Shown here: positions 53,424-55,069 of the stretch, piece after piece | How the letters are laid out: each line of letters starts with the position of its first letter | How positions within the stretch are numbered: position 1 is the first letter of the stretch | Assembly: GCF_900110945.1 (NCBI RefSeq) | Contig: NZ_FOFL01000003.1 | Coordinates: 248,001-312,000, forward strand | Reading direction: 5' to 3' | From: Devosia sp. YR412 | GTDB taxonomy: Bacteria; Pseudomonadota; Alphaproteobacteria; Rhizobiales; Devosiaceae | DNA length: 64,000 bases | Position numbers and translations under genes: made by a program | The notes under the pieces: model-generated | Told to the model about the DNA's origin: nothing | Database searches by the model: none | What the model saw: only the letters and a program-made list of their open reading frames with translations

Positions 53424-53603
53424 TTAGTTCTTGGCCGCGAGGACCTGACGACCGCGGTACATGCCGGTCTTGAGGTCGACGTGGTGCGGACGGCGCAGCT
53501 CGCCCGAATCCTTGTCTTCGACATAGGAACCAGCGGAAAGGGCGTCGGCCGAGCGGCGGAAGCCGCGCTTCATCGGCGAGGTCTTGCGTTTTGGAACTGC
53601 CAT
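53424..53603 (-). CDS. rpmF: 50S ribosomal protein L32
   Basis: A 59-residue protein that I translated by hand: [20 protein letters not shown] at the start, then [20 protein letters not shown] and a terminal [13 protein letters not shown]. This is the alphaproteobacterial L32 pattern, without the Cys zinc-ribbon pairs found in some phyla. It is short and easily missed by length cut-offs. A 148-base region upstream separates it from the next gene. Confidence 0.95.
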
Positions 53604-53751: not shown

Positions 53752-54093
53752 TCAGGCCGCCTGCGCGCCCTGCAGCGGCTCAGCACCTTCGAGGTCCCAG
53801 ATGGTAGCGAGGCGTTCGGCATTACCGGCCGAGAGCACGCGGAAGACGCGGTCGGCGCAGTCGAGCGCCAGGCGAAACCGCGTGCGGCTCATCGGATCGG
53901 CGACCAGTTCATCGGTCGAGCCGACCCACATGACGTGGCTACCCTTGGCCAGCACAAAGAGCTGGGCTTCATTCATGGCGAAGCGTTCGAGATTCTCGCT
54001 GAGCAGGCCATAGGTCTGGCCGGAGCGGCCCTGCCAATTGCTGTGGCGGCCAAAGCCGTGAACCAGAACATTGCTATCGACAATTCCAGTCAT
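53752..54093 (-). CDS. Hypothetical 113-residue protein with an SOS-type promoter
   Basis: Soluble protein starting MTGIVDSNVLVHGFGRHSNW, with GLLSENLERFAMNEAQLFVL, WVGSTDELVADPMSRTRFRL and a terminal AERLATIWDLEGAEPLQG. It has no membrane segment and no family that I can name; the opening resembles PIN-domain starts only superficially and the acidic triad is not evident. The frame extends to 54159, but that stretch holds the promoter and LexA box, so I start at 54093 (GGGGCG just upstream); ATG 54114 is the alternative. The LexA box predicts induction by DNA damage. Confidence 0.75.
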   Translation of the reverse strand: MTGIVDSNVLVHGFGRHSNWQGRSGQTYGLLSENLERFAMNEAQLFVLAKGSHVMWVGSTDELVADPMSRTRFRLALDCADRVFRVLSAGNAERLATIWDLEGAEPLQGAQAA

Positions 54094-54125
54094 TTCACGC
54101 CCCACAGATGACATCTGCCCAATGA

Positions 54126-54159
54126 GAACAAAATTAGAACAAAACACAAGACATGTCAA
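54126..54159 (-). promoter_or_regulatory. LexA-controlled promoter (GTTC-N7-GTTC over the -10)
   Basis: On the minus strand: -35 TTGACA (54154-54159), 17-base spacer, -10 TAATTT (54131-54136). The alphaproteobacterial LexA box GTTCTAATTTTGTTC (54126-54140) covers the -10 exactly. The predicted transcription start, near 54124, fits the downstream 113-residue gene. Confidence 0.8.
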
Positions 54160-54222
54160 GCGCCACTGCGCATGACCTCAATATATATGTTAGTGTTCGC
54201 CAAAAGCGTCAATATGTAGTGG

Positions 54223-55032
54223 TTATGGGGTGTTTGCCTGGGCCTGGCGCAGCGCATCGACCTTGGCCTGAAATTCCGGCGTCAGCGGCCGGCCGAGGCC
54301 ACGATCGACGGCTTCGAGAATCAGCTGATTGGAATGGGTTTCGATGGCGGATTTGAGGCGTTCCATGAAGACGTCGGCCGAGAGACCGGCTTCGATGGCT
54401 GGGAGGAACTTGCCCTCGGCCGTGCCTGGCCAGATCATCAGGCTATTGCGGCCCCAGAACAGGCCGGAGTTGAGCGCCACCGGCACCACCGGGACATTGA
54501 GCTCCATATAGAGCCGCACAATGCCCTGACGATAATCGGCCGGGGCCAACGGCGCCTTGCGGGTGCCTTCGGGGAAGATGACGATGCGGCAGCCACGTTC
54601 GACGGCGGCATGGGCCTGCGCCATCATCAACGGAATGGCTTCGGCGCCCTTGCGGCGATCGACTTCGATACAGTCGAGCGAGCGGGCGGCCCAGCCGAAG
54701 AAGGGAATGCGCATCAGCTCCTTCTTGACGATATAGGCGGGACGGCCGGCATGCGGGAAAATGGCGAAGACATCCCAGTCGCTCTGATGCTTGCTGGCAA
54801 TGATACAGCCGCCTTCGGGGATGTTTTCCTGCCCGGTCATCCTGGTTTTGACGCCGGCCAGATAGCGCAGGAATTTCAGGTTCGAGCGGCACCAGTATTT
54901 GGCCATGGCCCAGCTCAGCGGGGTGCGGCCGCTGATCAGGGCGATGATGCCCAGCGTGATGGCGACGATCGCCGTCTGGCCGATGAAGATGAAATAGAAC
55001 ACGGCCGTACGCAGGGCCTGGATCGCTGCCAT
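54223..55032 (-). CDS. plsC: 1-acyl-sn-glycerol-3-phosphate acyltransferase
   Basis: A 269-residue membrane enzyme making phosphatidic acid. N-terminal hydrophobic helix (about 8-38), acyltransferase block I SKHQSDWD (H82-x4-D87), block III-type FPEGTRKAPLAP and block IV VPVVPVALNSG. Start at 55032 has GGAGG eight bases upstream (minus strand). It is third in a run with the YcxB-like gene and ftsEX on the same strand. Confidence 0.94.
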   Translation of the reverse strand: MAAIQALRTAVFYFIFIGQTAIVAITLGIIALISGRTPLSWAMAKYWCRSNLKFLRYLAGVKTRMTGQENIPEGGCIIASKHQSDWDVFAIFPHAGRPAYIVKKELMRIPFFGWAARSLDCIEVDRRKGAEAIPLMMAQAHAAVERGCRIVIFPEGTRKAPLAPADYRQGIVRLYMELNVPVVPVALNSGLFWGRNSLMIWPGTAEGKFLPAIEAGLSADVFMERLKSAIETHSNQLILEAVDRGLGRPLTPEFQAKVDALRQAQANTP

Positions 55033-55069
55033 TCTCAATTCCTCCGCCGCGTCGCCGGGGCGAACGGGC

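Follow-up and report, generated by a model that had tools for sequence, protein, structure and literature searches.

In the window analysed here, the whole of a 64,000-nucleotide stretch of DNA from Devosia sp. YR412 (contig NZ_FOFL01000003.1, positions 248,001 to 312,000), a small gene on the minus strand codes for a protein of 113 residues (P0001), and the -10 element of the promoter before it is covered by a predicted LexA operator. A preliminary description, made from the sequence alone, had reported a TTGACA-N17-TAATTT promoter, an overlapping GTTC-N7-GTTC box, a 113-residue product, and plsC, ftsEX and rpmF close by. Re-reading the sequence bore out all of these claims (Table 1). The ATG at 54093 gives the length named, the open reading frame listed as 53752-54159 being the 135-codon reading from a TTG start, and genes for an acyltransferase, an FtsX-like permease, an ABC ATPase and ribosomal protein L32p are present nearby. 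The ratio of nonsynonymous to synonymous substitution rates (dN/dS) lies between 0.08 and 0.36 in six pairs, and the protein is therefore under selection.

Table 1. Features of the locus, in coordinates of the window
Feature	Position	Strand	Basis
-35 element TTGACA	54154..54159	-	Sequence; TTGAC kept in 25 of 26 Devosia-type loci
-10 element TAATTT, N17 from the -35	54131..54136	-	Sequence
Predicted LexA operator GTTCTAATTTTGTTC, over the -10	54126..54140	-	Sequence, conservation, published operator type
GGGG, likely ribosome-binding site	54100..54103	-	Many relatives also G-rich ahead of the start, by eye
Coding sequence of the 113-residue protein (P0001), including stop codon	53752..54093	-	Reading frame, relatives, dN/dS
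Residues 17-33, predicted N-terminal beta hairpin with W-x-G-R-S-G-x-x-Y signature	53995..54045	-	Model; conserved residues
Residues 45-59, two strands (LFVLAKG / MWVGS) aligned with the GIY and YIG strands	53917..53961	-	Model, alignment
Residues 91-101, last predicted helix, with isoleucine 98 at the expected catalytic glutamate position	53791..53823	-	Model, alignment
C-terminal Gln-Ala-Ala, predicted ClpXP signal	53755..53763	-	AA ends in homologues; tmRNA tag
TTGACG-N17-CATATA, possible second promoter between plsC and the SOS promoter	54184..54212	-	Sequence; similar sequence in many Devosia-type loci, by eye
plsC-type acyltransferase gene, upstream neighbour	54223..55038	-	PF01553
rpmF (ribosomal protein L32), downstream neighbour	53424..53603	-	PF01783

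An operator of the type GTTC-N7-GTTC is given for Alphaproteobacteria in a passage of PMC8565304 and for Caulobacter in a passage of PMC9578287. A single match to this pattern proves little, and the box at this locus is placed beyond chance because it is conserved before orthologues. The genome of YR412 contains 89 exact matches as against 72 of the reversed pattern, which amounts to some 0.005 matches in a window of 395 bases. Ten of these 89 (for example G000:C2:19363-19377) are the one 15-mer GTTCAGAATCCGTTC, which looks like a dispersed repeat rather than a set of LexA sites; box counts alone were for these reasons dropped as evidence.

Conservation upstream of orthologues, one of the checks that the preliminary description had proposed, upheld its claim. 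A scan of named genomes yielded 28 Devosia-type loci, of which 26 were counted for the box; L022, with its upstream DNA missing from the stretch, and L036 (Candidatus Devosia symbiotica), with a broken gene, were left out. The exact operator is found in all 26 of these loci, each of which has DNA upstream and a frame that covers most of the gene, including L023, whose C-terminal part departs from the frame of the family. In 25 of the 26 the word TTGAC precedes the box, at -19 (23 loci) or -18 (2 loci) relative to it. In Candidatus Devosia symbiotica the frame stops 14 codons into the matched stretch, and the box has decayed as well. All of the 12 additional Devosiaceae genomes carry the operator too (at least one of them, G179, looks like the already counted strain of L020), and so do six of nine genomes of the family f28. 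Outside Devosiaceae and f28, 60 members were fetched from the listed places of order-wide profile matches, and 43 of them carry the exact operator upstream of the match at a distance of up to 350 bases, which exceeds 250 in two cases. By our own count these 43 span 31 of the 36 genera in the set. As controls in the same 60 loci, the 108,120 strand-bases lying outside these upstream windows held no exact box, and the reversed pattern was seen in two of the 60 windows. The -35 word is looser in these 43 boxed members, 11 of which have TTGA(C/T) at -19 and five at -20. Seven of the 60 upstream windows (loci L123-L182) hold an exact box on the opposite strand. For a regulatory claim that is computed, control of this gene by a LexA-type operator is strongly indicated.

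The remaining 17 of the 60 members lack the exact box and, one case apart, even a box with one mismatch. They bear on the alternative that an inherited operator does no work here, and that the gene travels with the plsC region and is transcribed mainly from a promoter upstream; 11 of 12 boxless members examined keep the gene's place, and a second promoter-like element does lie upstream. This element could possibly be a second promoter or the site of another regulator. We nevertheless regard an idle operator as very improbable, because idle DNA would not stay conserved as the box and the -35 word have, with nearly constant spacing between them in 25 of the 26 Devosia-type loci and, for the box, in 31 of the 36 genera. 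Some lineages have probably lost the box. Eight of the 17 boxless members belong to one genus, g38 (L123, L127, L129, L135, L137, L139, L145 and L146), and these eight share a C-terminal extension ending SSRAVFTT-like; the three g38 loci read at 8 kilobases (kb; L254-L256) retain the place behind plsC. As to the promoter-like element itself, a similar CACTACATATTGAC...CATAGATATAG was seen by eye in many Devosia-type loci.

The same box type precedes recognisable SOS genes in this genome. Out of the 89 genome matches, 27 stretches with AT-rich spacers were examined, and in these the box stands before genes such as uvrA, radA, a YifB-type gene, a PA0069-type radical SAM gene and lexA, the last with two boxes on opposite strands; recA was not recognised among the frames behind the examined boxes, no search having been aimed at it. 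The gene studied here thus resembles members of the alphaproteobacterial LexA regulon in its operator sequence, in the site of the operator over the -10, in the conservation of the operator with the gene, and in sharing its box type with lexA, uvrA and radA, and differs in that its family is without a name in Pfam and NCBIfam. Two paralogues of the same genome, coding for 120 and 124 residues (L043:1372-1731 and L058:1292-1663, both on the minus strand), have the box GTTCCTATTTTGTTC after a TTGAC word, end in GLAA and GSAA, and gave no match in Pfam or NCBIfam; these are likely to be additional SOS genes without a name, whose products carry a similar tail. A 77-residue frame without a family (L038:331-561, plus strand) follows GTTCTATTTTTGTTC, a box common to many Devosia orthologues of the gene studied here.

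The preliminary description recognised no family for the protein, and this stands for Pfam, NCBIfam and PHROG, where the single protein found no match; it does not stand in the wider sense, as the protein belongs to an unnamed, order-wide family that looks related to GIY-YIG proteins. Searching NCBIfam with 53 members gave only single matches, each in one member and with E 0.002 at best. With a profile built from Devosia members, 899 proteins matched (the best 120 listed), and a search with one remote member matched 52. Of 101 Devosiaceae genomes, 97 have the gene, with an inner stop in one of them (G378), and two of the four genomes without it are less than 75% complete. When a joint profile was used, 201 of 397 Hyphomicrobiales genomes and 75 of 141 genera gave a match, nearly always a single one, these matches being taken as a set. 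Across the class, a wider profile, with at most 11 candidates scored per genome, matched 10 of 385 genomes, and four of the ten are GIY-YIG-like proteins outside the family, which looks largely confined to Hyphomicrobiales. From 16 matching genomes we dropped L078 and L079, by our reading LivF-like ABC ATPases with a chance match to WVGS...LVADP; from a separate set we dropped L091 and L092 as unrelated frames. In two genomes outside the order, relatives on the minus strand (L215, L216) lie directly behind a gene with the C-terminus ...CGECGNFTLVRNGTCLKC... or one close to it, presumably that of a B12-dependent ribonucleotide reductase; these relatives have no box. A literature search of titles and abstract openings, published SOS regulon tables being outside its scope, returned no description of the family. 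An order-wide, unnamed gene under LexA-type control is the likely reading of these results.

The chromosomal place of the gene is shared as well. In the window its neighbours match PF01553 (the acyltransferase, which we take to be plsC), PF02153 (tyrA), PF01783 (rpmF) and PF00005 (an ATPase, presumably ftsE), and the FtsX-like permease matches PF02687 below its cut-off; a further neighbour is presumably hisC. Neighbourhoods of 3.5 to 17.5 kb were read around 20 boxed loci (out of 43) and 12 boxless ones (out of 17). In 14 of the 20 boxed loci plsC lies less than 1 kb upstream, on the strand of the gene, with ftsE-ftsX before it, and 19 of 20 have plsC, tyrA or hisC within the stretch. The corresponding counts for the boxless loci are 8 of 12 for plsC, 6 of 12 for ftsE-ftsX and 11 of 12 for plsC, tyrA or hisC, the only locus with none of these three being a 3.5 kb contig. 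Given this shared place, the members are likely orthologues by position. We rejected an assignment of function from the neighbours, as those recognised are housekeeping genes.

The C-terminus is a further conserved feature. Among the matches listed, all 139 Devosia-type and all 52 f28-type homologues end in Ala-Ala, compared with 3 of the 42 genes approximately delimited in the window; these are counts of related sequences, which are not independent. Within the scanned Devosia-type loci the end is kept in 26 of 28 (the exceptions are L023 and L036), L071 is also without it, and in other families 15 of the 43 boxed members have it, as does 1 of the 17 without a box. Recognition of such ends by ClpXP is established for the ssrA tag. 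The transfer-messenger RNA (tmRNA) tag of this genome, ANDNNKAPVALAA, ends in ALAA and the protein ends in QAA, which by analogy is predicted to be a ClpXP degradation signal.

A small, probably short-lived and likely SOS-controlled protein encoded near ftsE and ftsX could be a division inhibitor, made on damage, blocking septation, perhaps through FtsEX or another part of the divisome, and then degraded. SulA, SidA and YneA are SOS division inhibitors of this kind that act by other means, and the protein studied here is like them in size, likely control and probable turnover, to which its AA tail points. In family searches it is set apart from them by having no match in Pfam or NCBIfam. Furthermore, SidA and YneA are membrane proteins according to a passage of PMC9578287, whereas the 139 listed Devosia-type members have no membrane-like segment, their highest 19-residue hydropathy being 1.24; 11 of the 52 f28-type members do reach 1.6 or more. 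Of the loci read, 14 of the 20 boxed and 6 of the 12 boxless ones have ftsE and ftsX near by, a nearness that may carry no function, since tyrA and hisC are also conserved neighbours. As the predicted fold also points to a nuclease-derived domain, we consider a division inhibitor unlikely, although it is, with the protein adaptor discussed below, one of the two main rivals of the explanation we favour.

In the structural model, a core in the order strand-strand-helix-strand-helix is predicted, with an extra N-terminal hairpin. The top match of this predicted fold in the PDB, with a weak score, is the N-terminal domain of UvrC (GIY-YIG, PF01541), aligned over model residues 34-106, and the first match in one further search was 2lwf, presumably also a GIY-YIG domain. 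Compared with a set of GIY-YIG-like proteins (A7), the family profiles A4 and A5 gave probabilities of 96.1 and 98.9, in a comparison that is partly circular and in which A7 includes members without a PF01541 match. Sequence searches of the PDB with profiles A1 and A5 returned chance-level matches only. Several results weigh against our reading as a whole. Besides the boxless members described above, UvrC ranked 32nd when Foldseek was run with a second model; the PF01541 cut-off was reached by neither P0001 nor 22 members of A1 nor 53 members of A5; and a profile comparison with a set of ordinary small GIY-YIG proteins gave a probability of 2. Because this last comparison failed, the protein is not filed under PF01541. 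A tie to GIY-YIG proteins is moderately supported by fold prediction and profiles together, and a GIY-YIG fold is likely on several weak but agreeing scores.

If the fold is of this kind, its catalytic residues have largely gone. At the position aligned with the catalytic glutamate, as set by alignment A9 and by what is known of UvrC, no row of A4 (0 of 102) has a glutamate, the residues being I, V, A, L or M; the protein of YR412 has isoleucine 98, and in the order-wide set A5 the glutamate is present in 6 of 53 rows and missing in 47. The position of the YIG tyrosine is W in 99 of 102 rows, the YIG strand is unrecognisable in the alignment of some families, and the GIY tyrosine is kept as Y in 51 of 102 rows, being F in the protein studied here. 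The family is like the UvrC N-terminal domain in the predicted order of core strands and helices, and unlike it in its added W-x-G-R-S-G-x-x-Y hairpin and in lacking the catalytic glutamate, the YIG tyrosine and a Pfam match. A further comparison is with the GxSGxxY-type GIY-YIG-like proteins of other Alphaproteobacteria (L217, L221, L247, L249), which share the hairpin signature or a form of it, the strand order and a profile link to the family; in contrast to it, they retain YIG-like motifs and the glutamate, and have no exact LexA box within the stretch checked.

An active but divergent GIY-YIG nuclease, comparable to Cho or to CC3518 of Caulobacter, would agree with the tyrosine kept in half of the rows and with the SOS box that a passage of PMC1839093 places before CC3518, there given as a UvrC-like gene with domain COG2827. 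The likeness to CC3518 is one of SOS box and GIY-YIG kinship, drawn from that passage. With the expected glutamate missing from all 102 rows of A4 and present in only 6 of the 53 of A5, tryptophan in place of the YIG tyrosine and a YIG strand that some families do not recognisably have, we think an active nuclease very unlikely.

The best conserved part of the protein is the hairpin, with W20 in 99, G22 and S24 in 102 and Y28 in 100 of 102 rows, and it lies outside the stretch aligned to UvrC. This, and the mildly acidic character of the Devosia-type proteins, would suit an adaptor that acts between proteins in the SOS response and does not contact DNA, for example as a partner of translesion polymerases or of UvrB. 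None of the recurring neighbours could be recognised as a partner encoded alongside, most neighbour clusters being without annotation, and we hold an adaptor of this kind to be improbable.

The explanation we favour, tentatively and at somewhat less than an even chance, is that this is a likely SOS gene, so regarded because a LexA-type operator over the -10 is kept in most Hyphomicrobiales relatives read, and that its product keeps a GIY-YIG fold as a non-cutting, DNA-binding repair accessory. LexA bound over the -10 would block transcription; DNA damage removes LexA, as is established for SOS genes, and the protein would then accumulate. It would probably bind distorted or branched DNA through the face used by active GIY-YIG domains and, once bound, mark or shield the DNA or steer another repair enzyme, these being the least certain steps. 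Its conserved, tmRNA-tag-like AA tail would finally let ClpXP remove it once repair is done. We infer LexA binding, induction, DNA binding and the repair role from sequence and model, the last as the simplest account of an SOS-controlled protein whose nuclease-type fold does not cut. The suggestion in the preliminary description of a new DNA-damage-induced factor accordingly holds on its regulatory side, given the box in 26 of 26 Devosia-type loci and 43 of 60 in other families, and is only partly supported as to function. Of its two guesses, a repair accessory suits the predicted fold better, and a division inhibitor less, though the ftsEX-plsC neighbourhood is conserved.

A bolder version, possible but doubtful, is that a disarmed, LexA-controlled pseudo-GIY-YIG protein serves the SOS response across the order, reading damaged or branched DNA without cutting it, protecting it or licensing its repair, and being cleared by ClpXP through its tmRNA-like tail. 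The family is found in half of the sampled Hyphomicrobiales genomes, with an SOS box in most members read, and yet has no name in Pfam or NCBIfam; it is likely to be a widespread new part of the DNA-damage response and not a one-off. Together with the two further SOS-box genes of this genome whose products end in -AA, it suggests that small SOS effectors here may generally carry self-destruct tails. To our knowledge, a non-cutting DNA-binding factor derived from a nuclease is a design without precedent among SOS proteins, and if our reading is true, the SOS response of this order would include one.
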